Shown piece after piece: positions 1-34,010 of a stretch of 43,448 nt of DNA (positions are counted from its first letter, which is position 1; each line of letters begins with the position of its first letter). This stretch comes from an uncultured Eubacteriaceae bacterium (lineage in GTDB: Bacteria > Bacillota > Clostridia > Lachnospirales > CAG-274): NCBI GenBank assembly GCA_948441255.1, contig CAOJPS010000003.1, forward strand, positions 1 to 43,448. The letters run 5' to 3'. The notes under the pieces are model-generated. The model did no database searches and was not told where the DNA came from. It saw only the letters and a list, made by a program, of their open reading frames with translations. The position numbers and the translations under genes are program-made.

Positions 1-232
1 GATATTTTCTTCTGCGAAACGTAGTTTCGCTCAAAAGTTCTTTGCTTCTTTCTTTTAAGTAGTGCCGCAAAGAAGTGCGGTCGGCGTTAGCCGATTTTTG
101 GCTTTGCCAAAAACACTGACCAAGAAGTCGGGTTTGGGCTGAAAGCCCAAGGTTTTTCTTAAGTTAGTGCATACGGGGACAGCGTCCCACGGTCTTAAGT
201 TAGTGCATGTGGGGCAAAGTCTGCGGTTTTAA
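1..232. repeat. Palindrome-mosaic intergenic repeat (locus R1)
   Basis: Successive short inverted repeats: GCGAAACgtaGTTTCGC, CCGCAaagaagTGCGG, TCGGCgttaGCCGA, TTTTTGGCtttGCCAAAAA, TTGGGCTgaaAGCCCAA, GGGACagcGTCCC. Same modules recur at about 12.0, 12.4, 17.6, 19.2, 28.2, 33.8 and 43.4 kb. A ~35-bp tandem unit 'ttaagttagtgcat..gggg.ca' occurs twice at the end. Confidence 0.85.
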
Positions 233-815: not shown

Positions 816-1040
816 TTAAGGCAATACCGCATAATTATGATTTCATAGATTTTGACGATATTTCCCATTACTGTGTCAAAACCTCTTATCATAGGCTCCG
901 ACTATGTGTACACCGCGAAGAAAAACGCGGACGGCGAAGCCGGCTTTCGCATAGCGAAAGTGTTTGAACTGCGAGCTTTTTCCTTGTACTAAAAAATATA
1001 ATCTAAAATCTATTTTATCGAATTATGCGGTATTGCTTAA
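816..1040. mobile_element. MITE-like element family A, copy 1, carrying an internal palindrome cassette
   Basis: Terminal inverted repeats ttaaggcaataccgcataatt / aattatgcggtattgcttaa. Interior matches, in opposite orientation, the element at 23331-23495, except for a ~62-bp insertion at about 907-968. Confidence 0.8.
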
Positions 1041-1051
1041 AATAATTTTTA

Positions 1052-1265
1052 TTTTAACGTGAGTTCGATGAAAAATTATAACTAATGGAACCTTTTTCTA
1101 TCGCAAAAAGGTTCCAAACCTCCAAAAATACTCTTGAAGCATTAAAAACCTTGAGGTTTCACCTCAAACTCCACAAACTTTTTAAAAAAAGTTTGACAAA
1201 AATTTTTGTGCGAAACTACGTTTCGCTGAGTTTCACTGTAATTTTTCATCGAACTCATATTTTAT
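1052..1265. repeat. Palindrome-mosaic repeat bounded by its own inverted termini (locus R2)
   Basis: Left ttttaacgtgagttcgatgaaaaattata and right gtaatttttcatcgaactcatatttta are inverted repeats. Interior has GGAACCTTTTTctatcgcAAAAAGGTTCC, TTGAGGTttcACCTCAA, CAAACTTTTTaaAAAAAGTTTG, GCGAAACtacGTTTCGC. Confidence 0.8.
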
Positions 1266-4546: not shown

Positions 4547-5665
4547 ATGGGAGAGATTGGCGTTTATATTCATATTCCTTTTTGCGTGAAAAAGTGCCTT
4601 TATTGTGATTTTAATTCTTTTTCGGGAAAAGAGGAATATTTTGAGGAATATAAAAATTCTATTGTAAAAGAGATTGAGAAATTTGAAACAGACAGAGAAC
4701 TGACTGTTAAAACGATTTTTATTGGGGGCGGTACTCCATCTGTTATGCCGGCGGAGTTTATTTGTGATATTTTGAATGCTGTCGGAAACAAATTTAACGC
4801 TGACAAAAATTCGGAGATTTCTATAGAGGTTAATCCCGGTACGGCGGATTTTGATAAATTTAAGTCGTATCGGGAAATGGGGATAAACAGAATAAGTGTT
4901 GGGGCGCAGTCTTTGGAGGACAGGCTTTTGAAAGTTTTGGGACGTGTTCACAATTCGGAACAGTTTTTTGAGTGTGCTGAATGGGCGAAAAAGGCTGGGT
5001 TTTCTAATATTAATTTTGACTTGATGTTCGCTCTGCCTGGTCAGACTTTGGACGAATGGAAGAAAACTTTAAGCGCCGCCGTGAAACTGAACCCGTCCCA
5101 TTTATCCCTTTACAGCCTTATTGTTGAGGAGGAAACGCCTTTTTTTGAGATGTTTGAAAGCGGAAAATTAAAAAGTGTTTCTGATGATGAGGATAGGGCT
5201 ATGTATTATTGGGCAAGGGAGTTTTTAAAGGATTTTGGATATTTTCAGTATGAAATTTCCAATTTCGCTAAAAAGGGCTTTGAGTGCCGGCACAATATTA
5301 CTTATTGGAAAAGAAAAGAGTATTTGGGTTTTGGACTTGGAGCCTGTTCATTTTTTTCTGGGAAAAGATTTCATAATAATTATGACTTGCTTGAATATAT
5401 TGCTGGAAGTTGGTTTGGAGAGGAAGAAGATTTTTCAAAAAATGACGCTTTTTCTGAGTTTATGTTTCTTGGGCTTAGAATGAATGACGGAATTTCCTTA
5501 AAAGAATTTTATGATTATTTTGGTGTGGAACTTGACAGTGTTTTTGGAAATAAAGTTGAGTTATTAATAGAACAAAAACTTTTGGAGGAAAAAAGCGGAA
5601 GGATTTGCCTTACAAGAAAAGGTGTTGACCTTTCAAACGCTGTGTTTAGAGAGCTTTTGCTGTAA
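4547..5665 (+). CDS. hemW: HemW-like radical SAM protein
   Basis: GVYIHIPFCVKKCLYCDFNSF (CxxxCxxC), FIGGGTPSVM, RISVGAQSLEDRLLKVLGRVHN; adjacent to lepA as in many Firmicutes. Confidence 0.93.
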   Translation: MGEIGVYIHIPFCVKKCLYCDFNSFSGKEEYFEEYKNSIVKEIEKFETDRELTVKTIFIGGGTPSVMPAEFICDILNAVGNKFNADKNSEISIEVNPGTADFDKFKSYREMGINRISVGAQSLEDRLLKVLGRVHNSEQFFECAEWAKKAGFSNINFDLMFALPGQTLDEWKKTLSAAVKLNPSHLSLYSLIVEEETPFFEMFESGKLKSVSDDEDRAMYYWAREFLKDFGYFQYEISNFAKKGFECRHNITYWKRKEYLGFGLGACSFFSGKRFHNNYDLLEYIAGSWFGEEEDFSKNDAFSEFMFLGLRMNDGISLKEFYDYFGVELDSVFGNKVELLIEQKLLEEKSGRICLTRKGVDLSNAVFRELLL

Positions 5666-5680
5666 TTGGAGGATAATATT

Positions 5681-7276
5681 ATGAGTTTTAAAAAATTGAT
5701 TGAGAATGCCGAAAATGGCGTAAAAGACACGTTGGTTAATTATAAAATTGTGCTTATATGGACTTTTATCGCTATGGCTTTGACACATATTTATTTTTTT
5801 GTGGGAAGATTTATCAATGAGGATATGTATGCTTATTTGAGAAAAACACCGGCGGAACCTGGTTCGGGAAGATTTTTTTATGGCGATGCTGAATTTACAA
5901 TTCTTCCTGTTATTATTTTTACAATTATATTTATTGAGTTGGCTGTTTCTGTAACTCTTATACTTAAAATGTTTAAAATTGAAAAGCCTCTTTACGGCGC
6001 TATTGTCGGCGCTTTTATGGTGACTTTTCCATCCTGGAGTTATTCTTTTGGCTATATTTTTATGTGGGATTCTTATTCGCTGTCTTTATTGACTGTTGTT
6101 TTAGCTGTCTTTATCACTGACAGGTATAAATATGGTTTTTTGCCGGGAGGATTTTTTATAGCCTGCTGTTTATCACTATATCAGTCGTATATAGCCGCAG
6201 CCATAACTTTAATTATTATGCTTTTGATAATTGAGCTTATGGAAAAAGATTTTAAAATGGTTGTTAAAAAAGCCGTGGCTTTTTTAGCTCTTGGAGTATT
6301 TGGCGTTATATTATATAAACTGGGAATATGGCTGTTTGATATTGAACTTAGTTCTTATAAGGGTTCTGATACAATGGGCGAAATTCCTATTGATATGATT
6401 CCGGGACTTATTAAAAGAACATATACTGGATTTATACAATTTTTTACGGGAAACCATTTTGGGGTTAGCGGTATTAGGTTTTTCTATGTACCGGCTTTTT
6501 TGGCGGTTGTTTATATTGCCGATATTATATTCGGAATTGTTATGCTTATTGGTATTTTGAGAAAAAAGAAGATAAAAAAATTGAATATAATTTTTACAGC
6601 GCTTTGTGCCGCCGCTTTGCCTTTGGCTGTGAATTTTGTCGACTTTATAGGCGTTAAAACGGCGGCTAGCACGCTGAACACATATGCGTTTGTACTTATG
6701 TTTATATTACCTATTGTATTATTTGCAAGATACAAAAAGTTATGGGGGGGGGTACAAAACTCCAATAAGTTATTTTTCGCTAAAAGAATATTGATAGTTT
6801 TTAGTGTTTTTATAATAGGCTATAATTTTTGGATGAACAACGCTTATTATCAAAAGGCGGAGGTTATTACCGAAAATACTAAAAATTTTGAAAACAGGCT
6901 TCTTGGAAGGTTTGAACAGCTTGAGGGATTTACTATTGACACAAAGTTTGCTATTATGGCGGACAATGACTATCTTTTTGGAAAAAACGTGAGAGACCAT
7001 TGGAGGAATTTTCCGTATATAGCGAACGACCAGGGGAACTATGGGTTTTATGTTACGGGGCTTAGAGATTTGAACAAAGCAAACTATAAAACAAGAAATC
7101 TTATGAAAAACCTTTTGGGCGTTGAGTTGAATACCGCTTCTGGTGAGGAGATTGAGGAAATTAAAAAGACTGACGAGTATAAAAATATGGGGGTTTATCC
7201 TGCTTTTGACAGTGTTAAAATGATTAACGGTATCGCTGTGGTTAATTTTGATGATAGGAGCAAGGATGAGGAATAG
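5681..7276 (+). CDS. GtrII-like (glucosyltransferase GtrII family) polytopic membrane protein, copy 1
   Basis: ~530 aa, many TM helices, homologous along its length to 8309-9919. GGAGG before ATG 5681. Family call from overall pattern (WTFIAMALTHIYFFVGR..., YSFSY/YSFGYIFMWDSYSLSLL). Confidence 0.7.
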   Translation: MSFKKLIENAENGVKDTLVNYKIVLIWTFIAMALTHIYFFVGRFINEDMYAYLRKTPAEPGSGRFFYGDAEFTILPVIIFTIIFIELAVSVTLILKMFKIEKPLYGAIVGAFMVTFPSWSYSFGYIFMWDSYSLSLLTVVLAVFITDRYKYGFLPGGFFIACCLSLYQSYIAAAITLIIMLLIIELMEKDFKMVVKKAVAFLALGVFGVILYKLGIWLFDIELSSYKGSDTMGEIPIDMIPGLIKRTYTGFIQFFTGNHFGVSGIRFFYVPAFLAVVYIADIIFGIVMLIGILRKKKIKKLNIIFTALCAAALPLAVNFVDFIGVKTAASTLNTYAFVLMFILPIVLFARYKKLWGGVQNSNKLFFAKRILIVFSVFIIGYNFWMNNAYYQKAEVITENTKNFENRLLGRFEQLEGFTIDTKFAIMADNDYLFGKNVRDHWRNFPYIANDQGNYGFYVTGLRDLNKANYKTRNLMKNLLGVELNTASGEEIEEIKKTDEYKNMGVYPAFDSVKMINGIAVVNFDDRSKDEE

Positions 7277-7286
7277 GGAGGATATT

Positions 7287-8296
7287 ATGAGTTAAAAAAA
7301 ATTGATTGTTGGATTTGAGGATAGGGCAAAAGCGTTTTTTGATAAATACAAAATGGCTATGTTCTGGACCGCTATGATTACGTTTTTTACACATATCTAT
7401 TTCTTTATGGACAGACTGGAAACGAGGATTCATTATTTCCCTTTAAAGGACAGGTTTCAAGAATCGGTTCGGGAAGATATTTTTATTGGACCGCAGAGTT
7501 TGATTTTGTACCTTATATACTTTTTGCCGTAATAATCTTGGAATTACTATTTTCTGTGATTATGGTTCTTTCTATGTTTAGGATAAAGAACAAACTGTAT
7601 TCGGTTATTATCGCCGCCGCCGCTGCCGCCCTTTTGCCTATGGCATTGAATTTTATTGATTTTATCGGGTTTAAAACAAGTTCGAATGCGCTGAACATTT
7701 ATGCTGTGGTTATTATTTTTACAGTGCCATTTGTTATAATTGATAGATATACTTATAGAATTATGGGAGGGGGTACAAAAACGCATAAAAGTAATTTCTT
7801 TTTTTCAAGAAGAATTCTGACTATTTTAAGCGCTATATTGATTGGGTATAATTTTTGGACTACTAATATGGTATATTTTAAAGCGGATGTTATAAAAACT
7901 TTTACTATGAATTTTGAAAACCGCTTATTTTCAAGATTTGAACAGATTGAGGGTTTTACTCTTGATACTCCCATAGCTGTTATTAGCGATGGAAGATATG
8001 TTTATGGCAAAGATATAGGAGAAAATTATGATTTATTTCCAAAAATAAAAGGTAACGTTGGCTTTCGTTTTAATATTATGGGTTTGGGAATAAACTCACA
8101 AGTGGCAACTATAGACGCTAAAATTTTAATTGAAAACTTACTTGGAATTAGTGTTAATACGGCAACAGAAGAACAGATTGAGGAAATTATGAAAACCGAT
8201 GAATATAAAAGTATGGGGGTTTATCCAGCCTTTGACAGTGCTAAAATGATTAACGGAGTTGCTGTGATAAATATGTGTGATAAGGAAATAAATTAA
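7287..8296 (+). pseudogene. Decayed GtrII-like copy 2
   Basis: ATG AGT TAA nonsense at codon 3 (7293-7295); 1-nt loss near 7417-7421 (CTGGAAACGAG vs expected CTGGGAAACGAG) shifts frame between the 7302-7532 and 7538-8296 ORFs; ~600-bp in-frame internal deletion at about 7610-7632 relative to copies 1 and 3. Confidence 0.88.
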
Positions 8297-8308
8297 GGAG
8301 AGAATATT

Positions 8309-9919
8309 ATGGATTTAAAAAAGTTGGCTTTAAATTTTGAGAACAAGGTAAGAGATTTTTTTAACGCACATAAAACAATTATATTTTGGACTGTTGTTTT
8401 TACAGTTTTTACGCACATATATTTTTTTATGGGAAGATATGGAAATGAGGATTCTAGATTTTATATTAATGAAACAGTTTCAATTTTTTCTTCGGGAAGA
8501 TATTTCTATGGTCATACAAAATTTGATTTTGTGCCGATTATAATATTTTTATTACATATTGTTGAGTTGATTTTTTCGGTTCTTGCTGTATTGTCGATGT
8601 TTAGAATAAAAAGTAAACTGTATTCTATTATAATCGCGGCGATTATGGTTACATTTCCTGTTTTGGGATATTCTTTTTCATACATTCAAATGTATGATAC
8701 GTATACTTTGGCACTATTGTTTTCTGTTTTGGCGGTATATTGCGCTGATAGATGGAAATATGGATTTTTTGGCGGGGGAGTACTGTTAGCGTGCGGTTTA
8801 GCGTTATATCAGGCGTATATTGAGGTTTCAATGGGCTTTTGTATGGTTATTTTGATTATTGAGTTTATTGAGAATGATATGCGAGATGTTTTTATTAAAG
8901 CTTTGAGATTTGCGGCGCTTATAATAATTGGGTTTATAGTGTATAGAGCAGGCATATGGATTTTAGGAATAGAACTTTCAAATTACGCTGGGATTGATTC
9001 AATGGGAGTGATACCTATTTCTGAAATTCCGGCTAGGGTAATAAAAGCTTATTCAGATTTTTATGGCTTTTTTACCGCGATTGACTTTAGTGTTCCATCT
9101 ATGAGTTTTTTCTATATTCCTATACCTGTGTTTGTTGTTTATGTTATATTCGCCCTGTTTTCTTTGAGGATTATTTTAAAGGCAATTAAGGAAAGTAAAG
9201 TTAAATTGATAAATAAGGCGGTTATAGTTATTGTTTTTTTGCTTATGCCGTTTATTTTGAATTTTATGGGTTTTGCCGCTTTAAGTATACATTGCTGTAT
9301 GATGTATTCGTTTGTTATACCCTTTATAATTCCATTTATTTTTATGGATAGATATTTTATGGATAAAGATGTAAATAAGAAAACTTACTCGGGAAATAAA
9401 TGTTTTTGGGTTAAAAGAGTTATGGTTGTTTTAAGCGCTATAATAATTGGTTATAATTTTTGGACAACTAATCTTCTTTATTTTAAACTGGACGTTTTGA
9501 AAACAAATACAGTCAGCTTTTTTACAAGAATGTACTCAAGGTTTGAACAGCTTGAGGGATTTACAGATAAAACCCCTATTGCTTTTATTGTTGATGGCAA
9601 AGAGTTTTTGGATAAATCGGTTAATCAAAGTTACGCCGTTTTTCCAAATACAAAAACACTGCTTATGATAAGATATAATGTGATAAGCGGATTTGCGGAG
9701 GGAACTCATAAACCGCCTTATTACGCTACGTTTAAAAACTCGGATTTCTTAAAAAATCTTTTGGGGATTATAATACCAAGGGCGAGTACAGAGCAGATTG
9801 AGGAAATTAAAAAAACCGACGAATATAAAAGTATGGGGGTTTATCCCGATTATGACAGCGTTAAAATGATTAACGGTATCGCTGTGGCTAATTTTATTGA
9901 CAACGGAAATGATGGATGA
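8309..9919 (+). CDS. GtrII-like polytopic membrane protein, copy 3
   Basis: 536 aa, intact, same architecture as copy 1, shared C-terminus IEEIKKTDEYKSMGVYPDYDSVKMINGIAV. Confidence 0.72.
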   Translation: MDLKKLALNFENKVRDFFNAHKTIIFWTVVFTVFTHIYFFMGRYGNEDSRFYINETVSIFSSGRYFYGHTKFDFVPIIIFLLHIVELIFSVLAVLSMFRIKSKLYSIIIAAIMVTFPVLGYSFSYIQMYDTYTLALLFSVLAVYCADRWKYGFFGGGVLLACGLALYQAYIEVSMGFCMVILIIEFIENDMRDVFIKALRFAALIIIGFIVYRAGIWILGIELSNYAGIDSMGVIPISEIPARVIKAYSDFYGFFTAIDFSVPSMSFFYIPIPVFVVYVIFALFSLRIILKAIKESKVKLINKAVIVIVFLLMPFILNFMGFAALSIHCCMMYSFVIPFIIPFIFMDRYFMDKDVNKKTYSGNKCFWVKRVMVVLSAIIIGYNFWTTNLLYFKLDVLKTNTVSFFTRMYSRFEQLEGFTDKTPIAFIVDGKEFLDKSVNQSYAVFPNTKTLLMIRYNVISGFAEGTHKPPYYATFKNSDFLKNLLGIIIPRASTEQIEEIKKTDEYKSMGVYPDYDSVKMINGIAVANFIDNGNDG

Positions 9920-11963: not shown

Positions 11964-12580
11964 AGAGTTTTTTTACTTCTTTTTTACTTCTTTCTTGAAA
12001 GAAAGAAGCAAAGAACTTTTGCGCGAAACTGCGTTTCGCTGTTTAAAAAATAGCGGCGAAACCGCCGCCGTCATTTTTTTAGCAAAGCGAATGCTTTGCG
12101 TTTTAAAGTTTAGAATCAAGCCCTTTTTAATATGTGCCGCAAAGAAGTGCGGACGGCGTAAGACGGCTTTAGGCTTTGCCAAAAGCACTGACTAGCTTGC
12201 AGGGTGTGGGACAGCGTCCCACGGTTTTAACTTAACGTGAGTTCGATGAAATTTTATAATTATTGGAACCTTTTTCTATCGCAAAAAGGTTCCAAACCTC
12301 CAAAAATGCTCTTGAAGCGTTAAAACCTTGAGGCTCTGCCTCAAACTCCGCTCGCTTTTTGAAAAAGCGAGGCAAAAACTTTCGCGCGAAACTGCGTTTC
12401 GCTGTTCTTTTAGCAAAGCGAATGCTTTGCGTTTTAAAGTTTAGGGTCAAGCCCTTTTTAATATGTGCCGCAAAGAAGTGCGGACGGCGTAAGCCGGCTT
12501 TTGGCTTTGCCAAAAGCACTGACTAGCTTGCAGGGTGTGGGACAGCGTCCCACGGTTTTAAAGCCCCACGGTCTTAAAGG
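11964..12580. repeat. Palindrome-mosaic repeat (locus R3) with an internal ~149-bp direct duplication
   Basis: 12081-12229 and 12412-12560 are near-identical (agcaaagcgaatgctttgcgttttaaagtttag..tcaagccctttttaatatgtgccgcaaagaagtgcggacggcgtaag.cggctt...gggacagcgtcccacggtttta). Also holds the R2-type block ggaacctttttctatcgcaaaaaggttccaaacctccaaaaat. Confidence 0.9.
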
Positions 12581-17557: not shown

Positions 17558-17725
17558 AACTAAAACAGTGGGACGCTGTCCCACACCCTGCTAGCTTTCT
17601 TTCAAGAAAGCTAGGCAAAGAACTTTTATGCGAAACTGCGTTTCGCTGTTTAAAAAATAGCGAATGCTTTGCGTTATGGGTCAGAGGATTTGTGGGACAG
17701 CGTTCCACGGTGTTTCCTATATTGT
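17558..17725. repeat. Palindrome-mosaic repeat (locus R4) inside the cobalamin gene run
   Basis: GTGGGACgctGTCCCAC, CTAGCTTTCTTtcAAGAAAGCTAG, GCGAAACtgcGTTTCGC, gcgaatgctttgcg remnant, GTGGGACagcGTTCCAC. Confidence 0.85.
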
Positions 17726-19097: not shown

Positions 19098-19411
19098 TTT
19101 TAACGTGAGTTTGATAAAGCATTAAAAACCTTGGGCTTTCAGCCCAAACCCGACTTCTTGTTCAGTGTTTTTGGCTTCGCCAAAAATCGGCTTACGCCGA
19201 CCGCATTTCTTTGCGGCACTACTTAAAAGAAAGAAGCAAAGAACTTTTGTGCGAAACTACGTTTCGCTGATGAAATGAGAAATTTTCAATTAAAATTAAA
19301 TTAACCAATAACTTTATTTTCAGCAAAGCGTTAGCTTTGCGTTTTAAAGTTTAGGGTCAAGCCCTTTTTAAAGGGCTTGCAGGGTGTGGGACAGCGTCCC
19401 ACGGTTTTAAA
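19098..19411. repeat. Palindrome-mosaic repeat (locus R5) between convergent cbiB and dnaJ
   Basis: tttaacgtgagtttgat start, TTGGGCTttcAGCCCAA, TTTTTGGCttcGCCAAAAA, TCGGCttacGCCGA, CCGCAtttctTTGCGG, GCGAAACtacGTTTCGC, GCAAAGCgttaGCTTTGC, AAGCCCTTTttAAAGGGCTT, GTGGGACagcGTCCCAC. Confidence 0.88.
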
Positions 19412-20623: not shown

Positions 20624-20765
20624 TATAGTAATTACACTTTAAAGGTTACAAAAAAATTATTTTACTTGCACGGGCTGTAAATTGCTTCGCAATTCGCTTA
20701 CCGCCCAGCAGTGCTTATGCACTCGTAAAATATTTTTTTGTTATAATTTAAGTGTAATTACTATA
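20624..20765. mobile_element. MITE-like family B, uninterrupted copy
   Basis: tatagtaattacactttaaa / tttaagtgtaattactata inverted termini; interior matches 2298-2415. Confidence 0.85.
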
Positions 20766-23330: not shown

Positions 23331-23495
23331 TTAAGGCAATACCGCATAATTCAATAAAACAGGTTTGAGATGATATTTTTCAGTGCAAGGAAAAAGCTCG
23401 CAATCATAGCCGGCGCCTATGATAAGAGGTTTTGACGCAGCAATGGAAAATATCAGCCAAAGCTGTGAAATTATAATTATGCGGTAGTGCCTTAA
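23331..23495. mobile_element. MITE-like family A, copy without cassette, in the hrcA-grpE intergenic gap
   Basis: ttaaggcaataccgcataatt / aattatgcggtagtgccttaa. The hrcA stop codon (23492-23494) falls inside the right terminus. Confidence 0.85.
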
Positions 23496-28149: not shown

Positions 28150-28468
28150 ATGGTTTTATTGAACACGTGGTACACTGTCCCACACCCTGCTAAAATATTA
28201 AAACCGTGTAAACCCGTGGGACGCTGTCCCACACCCTGCAAGCCCTTTAAAAAGGGCTTGACCCTAAACTTTAACAAGCAAAAACTGTCGTTTTTGCTAT
28301 ATATAGTGAAAGAAATTTAATAACGGCAAAATAAATTTTTTTACTTCTTTTTAAGTTCTTTCACTATAAGTAGTGCCGCAAAGAAGTGCGGTCGGCTGGG
28401 GTCGATTTTTGGCAAAGCCAAAAACATTAACCAGGAAGTCGGGTTTGGGCTGAAAGCCCAAGGTTTTT
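28150..28468. repeat. Palindrome-mosaic repeat (locus R6), overlapping the 3' end of the ytqA-like gene
   Basis: Two GTGG(G/T)AC..GTCCCAC copies, AAGCCCTTTaaAAAGGGCTT, AGCAAAAACtgtcGTTTTTGCT, TATAGTGAAAGAA(28302-28314)/TTCTTTCACTATA(28356-28368), CCGCAaagaagTGCGG, TTTTTGGCaaaGCCAAAAA, TTGGGCTgaaAGCCCAA. Confidence 0.88.
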
Positions 28469-29651: not shown

Positions 29652-29921
29652 TCTCGTGATAGCCGGGGAGGTAGCGGCACCCTGTATCCACAATCCGCTG
29701 TAGTGGAGGTGACGTCTGCTTTAGATTTCTCTGTTTGGTAGTCTGCCCTTTAAAAGAAGGCGATGACGGCTGAGTCTTGCGCAACAGGAATTTGTGAACC
29801 GTGTCAGATCCTGACGGAAGCAGCACTAAGCAAACACTCTTGTGTGCCGTGAGGGTGCTTGGCCTGAGTTTTCTTTTTTAGGTTACGTATGGGACAGGAA
29901 GGCGACAGCAGATTCACGGGA
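29652..29921 (+). ncRNA. ffs: Large signal recognition particle RNA (Bacillus/Clostridia type with Alu domain)
   Basis: agccggggaggtagcggcaccctgtatccacaatccgct..., ctgagtcttgcgcaacaggaatttgtgaaccgtgtcagatcctgacggaagcagcactaag...tgtgccgtgagggtgcttggc; terminal tctcgtgat/attcacggga pairing. Upstream of dnaX. Confidence 0.95.
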
Positions 29922-33704: not shown

Positions 33705-34010
33705 AACCTTGGGATTTAAAGCCTTGGGACTTAAAACCGCAGGACGCTGTCCCGCACCCTGCAAGCTGATCAGTGTTTTTGGCTTCGCCAAAAATCGGCT
33801 TACGCCGACCGCACTTCTTTGCGGCACCTATTGAAAAAAAGCTTGGCAAAAAACTTTTGCGCGAAACTATGTTTCGCGGAAGAGAATATTAAAATTATAT
33901 CAAAAACGATAGTTTTTTAACAGCGAAACGTAGTTTCGCACAGAGGTTCTTTGCTTCTTTCTTTTAAGAAAGAAGTCGGGTTTGGGCTGAAAGCCCAAGA
34001 TTTTTCTTAA
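33705..34010. repeat. Palindrome-mosaic repeat (locus R7)
   Basis: caGGACgctGTCCcgcaccctgcaagctgatcagtg, TTTTTGGCttcGCCAAAAA, TCGGCttacGCCGA, CCGCActtctTTGCGG, GCGAAACtatGTTTCGC, AAAAACgatagTTTTT, GCGAAACgtaGTTTCGC, TTGGGCTgaaAGCCCAA. Confidence 0.88.

Follow-up and report, generated by a model that had tools for sequence, protein, structure and literature searches.

By organisation, the closest known counterparts of the repeats described here are the BOX elements (boxA-boxBn-boxC) of Streptococcus pneumoniae and S. suis, in which an optional internal module is present in zero to several tandem copies between fixed ends and folds largely independently of those ends (PMC3049150). In S. suis, two alternative sets of ends enclose one and the same boxB, as in the boxE-boxBn-boxF form (PMC3049150). 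The Correia (NEMIS) elements of Neisseria are short, TA-targeted inverted-repeat elements of two lengths that differ by an internal block of ~50 bp (PMC2229807). RUP of S. pneumoniae, an IS630-type MITE, is characterised by its size, inverted ends, TA target, and insertion into IS transposase genes, and an optional internal module is not described for it (PMC2229807). REP/BIME and REPIN sequences are dispersed intergenic palindromes that form mosaic arrays and whose hairpins serve as landing sites for other elements (PMC1525189).

The DNA analysed here (the window) is a stretch of 43,448 nucleotides, contig 3 of a genome of 2.62 Mb in 282 contigs. A repeat family found in it, termed family A, shares with BOX the arrangement of fixed ends around an optional tandem middle module (zero, one, or two units), and this module, termed the cassette, is also found between different ends, as is boxB in S. 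suis. The cassette occurs in Clostridia and not in streptococci, is likened to BOX by organisation and not by boxA, boxB, or boxC sequence, and differs in being a covarying four-helix cloverleaf present in 26 genera and in many unrelated hairpins. Like the Correia elements, family A has two lengths differing by an internal block; to our knowledge, the Neisseria block has neither an independent existence nor tandem copies, whereas the cassette occurs in other repeats and genera. Family A matches RUP in size, inverted ends, TA target, and insertion into an IS transposase gene. With REP/BIME and REPIN, the features in common are dispersed intergenic palindromes, mosaic arrays, and hairpins that host other elements; no common GTAG-type foot was noticed, and the cassette unit is a cloverleaf rather than one hairpin. 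The ERIC sequences of Yersinia and relatives are palindromic repeats with an optional insert at a fixed place, as is family A, and we know of no case in which the ERIC insert is a shared module of other repeats.

Two states of one palindromic repeat

According to the preliminary description of this DNA, the element at 816-1040 shares its flanks with 23331-23495 read as the reverse complement, and only the first carries an insert. This was confirmed by alignment, with 142 of 164 positions identical (87%) outside the one inserted block, and such matches were essentially absent from dinucleotide shuffles. In the filled copy, the 63 nt TGTACACC...TTTGAAC (907-969) stand between CTATG (902-906) and TGCGAGC; in the reverse complement of the empty copy, only AT separates CTATG from TGCGAGC. 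The insert had been located correctly, but its end was placed one base short, at 968. As proposed, it aligns over its whole length with the cassette at 12.47 kb, and the feature common to the two is the cloverleaf fold, with an outer stem of ACA/TGT at 910 and GTG/CAC in the 12.47 kb cassette. The filled repeat folds as a single long hairpin (z -5.4) and the empty repeat as one hairpin (z -6.5).

Copies of family A were gathered from the genome with a core pattern allowing up to two mismatches, and chance matches and double readings of palindromes were set aside. This search resulted in ~51 copies, a count that is approximate because some copies were merged as duplicates. The cassette directly follows CTATG in 14 copies, two of which are cut by contig ends, and at least three further cassette-bearing fragments are chimeric or located at contig ends. 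With ~14 of 51 cores filled, cassette-free copies predominate and filled copies are not the majority. The insertion point is always the same across the family, and the left junctions in this genome are all alike. One filled copy (L003) and one empty copy (L021), located at different genomic places, have arms that are the same base for base, with the junctions CTATG/TGTACACC..TTTGACC/TGCGAG and CTATG/AT/TGCGAG, which shows gain or loss of the cassette as one unit, as had been proposed. In a tree of 48 arm sequences from which the cassette was left out, the two states showed no clustering: 11 state changes were counted against a mean of 10.9-11.0 for shuffled labels, and at least five are forced by well supported branches. 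Given this lack of clustering and the identical arms of L003 and L021, the cassette state either turns over more quickly than the arms accumulate differences or is reassorted by recombination between arms and cassettes.

Recombination could in principle be the whole explanation, with a single founding insertion in family A and all present differences resulting from gene conversion between dispersed copies. The uniform left junctions and the uncoupling of state from arm phylogeny agree with this, as does a hairpin-3 loop variant, TCA, that is common to L003 and L006, copies of different arm subfamilies. Conversion by itself, however, leaves the cassettes in hairpins without family A arm sequence (described below) unexplained. 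We regard it as a somewhat unlikely full account; gene conversion is a step of the model that we favour rather than a full alternative to it.

Two 63-nt units are present in the family A copies at contigs C7 and C223. Tandem units were found in this genome at C7, C223, C254, and C169 and elsewhere in genomes G013, G192, and G284, such arrays recur across genomes, and they are present in the second host family (family B) too. Four contigs (C120, C149, C210, and C254) end within a cassette, which would fit arrays breaking the assembly.

Family A is MITE-like, being short, bounded by terminal inverted repeats, and devoid of genes; the empty copy is 165 bp, with ends complementary over ~20 bp, and is thus too short for a transposase gene. 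By eye, TA is present at both ends of the copies. One cassette-bearing copy (L182, G000:C120, 1711-1839) interrupts an IS200 transposase gene at TA. An uninterrupted copy of the IS on C123 shares 97.5% identity with it as far as the insertion and runs on past the TA, a comparison in which the left side alone is visible as contig C120 ends inside the cassette. The TA ends and this one-sided view of an insertion point to target duplication and mobility of family A. Two Y1 transposase genes are present in the genome, both read as IS200 genes and one of them broken by family A, and 254 sites in the genome resemble family A ends.

Several other repeats were encountered. The 1.5 kb upstream of L182 contain two more family A copies along with other repeats. 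Nested insertions are present in three family A copies (L008, L009, and L012), where a different repeat, with AAGGAAACACCG at its start, breaks the right arm. A second repeat with more than 10 copies (G000 C2, C15, C43, C74, C83, and others; L126-L131) has the tip motif CATAGCCGAAGCCTATGCCGACCG and the ends TATAGTCAATCAACTT / AAGTTGATTGACTATA, and its CATAG...CTATG tip is common to family A. Within the window, two 122-nt repeats at 2298-2419 and 20624-20745 are 96% identical; the latter has inverted ends, and the two belong to another MITE-like family. Tandem paralogous genes at 5666-9919 contain repeated segments spaced 1.0 and 1.6 kb. A large bacterial signal recognition particle RNA gave a strong Rfam match at 29654-29919, and an IS605 RNA hint at 5078-5273 was under the Rfam threshold.

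Structure and distribution of the cassette

The cassette is a small non-coding DNA module made up of a cloverleaf of ~55 nt and a short tail, usually TGAC. In the cloverleaf, three hairpins are enclosed by an outer stem 3 bp or more long. In an 18-sequence alignment, hand-guided with N spacers setting the register as a first MAFFT alignment of families A and B had misplaced loop 1, 98.6% of the cells are paired and all three outer pairs are changed on both sides, with the outer-stem variants ACA/TGT, GTG/CAC, GCG/CGC, TCA/TGA, and GCA/TGC. For 75 distinct model-fitted sequences from other genomes, 99.2% of the cells are paired and 18 of 20 pairs are changed on both sides; this set is biased towards the model, and shuffles and slides nevertheless scored far lower. 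The motif AAGA in loop 1 and the TGAC tail are conserved. G-T accounts for 22 of the 2187 paired cells (~1%), against six A-C pairs. Structured RNAs generally carry many more wobble pairs than this. The rarity of wobble pairs suggests that the pairing is kept up at the DNA level and not as an RNA gene.

If the cassette were instead a working structured RNA carried in untranslated regions and under selection for its fold, such as an element for processing or stability, strong covariation and conserved elements such as AAGA and TGAC would also be expected, and the outnumbering of A-C by G-T pairs points the same way, although this excess may come from covariance model scoring. Such an RNA is difficult to reconcile with the low share of wobble pairs, the high and variable copy number, the arrays, the many genomes of the same genera without a match, and the lack of a matching Rfam family, and we consider it quite improbable.

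Within the order, a covariance model of 20 pairs matched 73 of 295 genomes (26 of 129 genera), with full-length matches at E 1e-11 and below in many of them. Among 399 genomes drawn across the phylum, two matched, the genome studied here aside. Many genomes of cassette-bearing genera had no match to the model, and all organism names encountered were those of uncultured Clostridia and Eubacteriales from animal guts. Repeats often contain short GC-rich hairpins, and two unrelated palindromes might have come to look alike by chance; this is barely credible and was rejected because shuffling expects zero matches and the model matches the order at E 1e-11 and below and almost nothing outside it. 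The cassettes matched no Rfam family, even with E values up to 1 allowed, and the consensus cassette had no match in phage and plasmid collections; two viral contigs matched a cassette pattern. In the open-access literature searched, no description of the module was found, an absence that is weak evidence.

Filled and empty hairpins of other hosts

The covariance model identified seven cassette homologues in the window, including 908-971, and six of these are located in family B hairpins (Table 1). Empty counterparts with the same flanks are close by in the window for two of the filled hairpins, those at 12448 (empty at 19358) and 45 (empty at 33954). The CTAGC and CAAAC hairpin types are empty in the window and have filled relatives elsewhere in the genome. 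In filled hairpins, the 5' arm and loop are retained and the cassette lies in the 3' arm, 2-6 bases past the loop, with 0-3 bases of the 3' arm missing. Genome G026 contains both empty and filled counterparts of GCTCCCCC/GGGGGAGC hairpins, and its two-hairpin repeat (CCCCCTCAGTC...GACTGAGGGGG) carries the cassette in the right-hand hairpin at one locus and in the left-hand one at another, with the partner hairpin empty each time.

Table 1. Family A repeats, cassettes, and empty hairpins in the window
Feature	Position	Strand	Remarks
Family A repeat, filled state	816..1040	+	MITE-like; inverted ends TTAAGGCAATACCGCATAATTAT / AATTATGCGGTATTGC; TA target
Cassette of 816-1040	907..969	+	outer stem 910-912/961-963; hairpin 1 913-930; hairpin 2 932-942; hairpin 3 944-960; tail TTGAAC 964-969
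Family A repeat, empty state	23331..23495	-	AT where the cassette would stand
Cassette in CTTCTTTCTT...AAGAAG hairpin (family B)	60..124	+	covariance model
Cassette in CAAGCCC...GCTTG hairpin (family B)	12132..12196	+	covariance model
Cassette in CAAGCCC...GCTTG hairpin (family B)	12463..12527	+	covariance model
Cassette in CTTCTTTCTT...AAGAAG hairpin (family B)	19157..19221	-	covariance model
Cassette (family B), context partly eroded	28371..28435	+	covariance model
Cassette in CAAGCTTTTTTT...GCTTG hairpin (family B)	33765..33829	-	covariance model
Empty hairpin CAAGCCCTTT-TT-AAAGGGCTTG (CAAGCCCTTTTTAAAGGGCTTG type)	19358..19379	+	counterpart of hairpin at 12448
Second empty CAAGCCCTTTTTAAAGGGCTTG hairpin	28239..28260	-	
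Empty hairpin CTTCTTTCTT-TT-AAGAAAGAAG (CTTCTTTCTTTTAAGAAAGAAG type)	33954..33975	+	counterpart of hairpin at 45
Empty hairpin CTTCTTTCTT-GA-AAGAAAGAAG	11987..12008	+	
Empty hairpin CTAGCTTTCTT-TC-AAGAAAGCTAG	17591..17614	+	filled relative L065
Empty hairpin CAAACTTTTT-TT-AAAAAGTTTG	1174..1195	-	filled relatives L019, L068

A stem of at least 6 bp near the cassette was found in eight of 46 distinct flank pairs against 1.6 expected from permuted pairs (p ~1e-4), a suggestive result in that the offset limits were set after viewing examples and the test was chosen after a null energy test. In that energy test, the flank duplexes overall were no better than permuted pairs, and ~80% of distinct contexts are without a flanking stem of at least 6 bp. 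The preference for hairpin tips is clear for several host families and not for most single contexts.

Another possibility is that the cassette was ancestral in family A and was lost repeatedly. Empty copies would then be deletion products, made for instance where the cloverleaf halted a polymerase, which copied the opposite palindrome arm and so restored a clean hairpin. Quasipalindrome template switching is known in E. coli (PMC7202029), and near-perfect palindromes such as the empty tips are its expected product; the two replaced bases also often match the opposite arm (AT with TATCATAG and TT with TAACATAG). The two copies in the window are therefore not by themselves evidence of insertion, as template switching could also have produced the empty copy, the more perfect palindrome. 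Genomes G002 and G003 contain both states, with diverged cassettes at the same point, which also favours ancestral presence, but every family A copy recovered from the sister genus G005 and from G001 is cassette-free. Moreover, empty-arm bases are absent from filled copies, so plain deletion cannot produce the empty state, and each unrelated host hairpin must have acquired a cassette at least once. Repeated loss of an ancestral cassette is thus an unlikely history, and insertion is supported mainly because unrelated host hairpins have empty counterparts.

Flanking duplications at the cassette, a further sign suggested for inspection in the preliminary description, were looked for and no target-site duplication was found: among 46 distinct contexts, direct repeats beside the cassette were no commoner than in permuted pairs. 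No conserved upstream target was noticed. In the one orthologous region examined, an intergenic site (L305 1560-1990, L322-L326), no presence/absence of the cassette at a strictly orthologous position was found; the palindromic repeats there differ between G026, G062, and G063, and G019, G032, and G061 have only short spacers. As there is no target duplication and no upstream target was noticed, we infer the founding insertion from the paralogous empty counterparts. For the unrelated hosts, insertion is the best reading. Conversion and loss are probably also at work in family A, where gene conversion, precise loss, and re-insertion may each account for changes of state.

A model for the cassette and its significance

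The cassette is a cloverleaf that is present or absent as a unit, has a fixed position in family A, forms tandem copies, and occupies several unrelated host hairpins. On balance, it is probably an optional component of longer palindromic repeats, located close to their tips and with a history of founding insertion, host-borne spread, conversion, and loss. Rare founding insertions would bring the module close to the tip of a hairpin repeat, in most cases into the 3' arm immediately beyond the loop. They would remove or replace 0-3 nt and leave no target duplication; our guess is that a structure-guided single-strand step during replication may be involved. In an abundant host family such as family A, the cassette would then ride on transposition of the host repeat and on gene conversion between dispersed copies. 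Loss could follow when an empty copy converts a filled one or when replication switches template to the opposite arm, and the number of units would shift by slippage. The hairpin arms would stay complementary mainly through DNA-level correction. More tentatively, the cassette may represent a distinct kind of mobile DNA module that enters hairpin tips, with no target duplication and no coding capacity, across an order of gut Clostridia, and the repeats may be nested palindromes built by repeated tip insertion.

The cassette behaves as a small accessory that different repeats have in common, comparable to boxB in the streptococcal BOX elements. It is a widespread and easily found module with paired empty and filled sites, often within one genome, and these paired sites make the gain and loss of internal modules in palindromic repeats, an old question, testable. 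The cassette may also underlie a class of assembly breaks and repeat mosaics found in uncultured gut Clostridia, and it is a possible marker for strain typing, as BOX is in streptococci.
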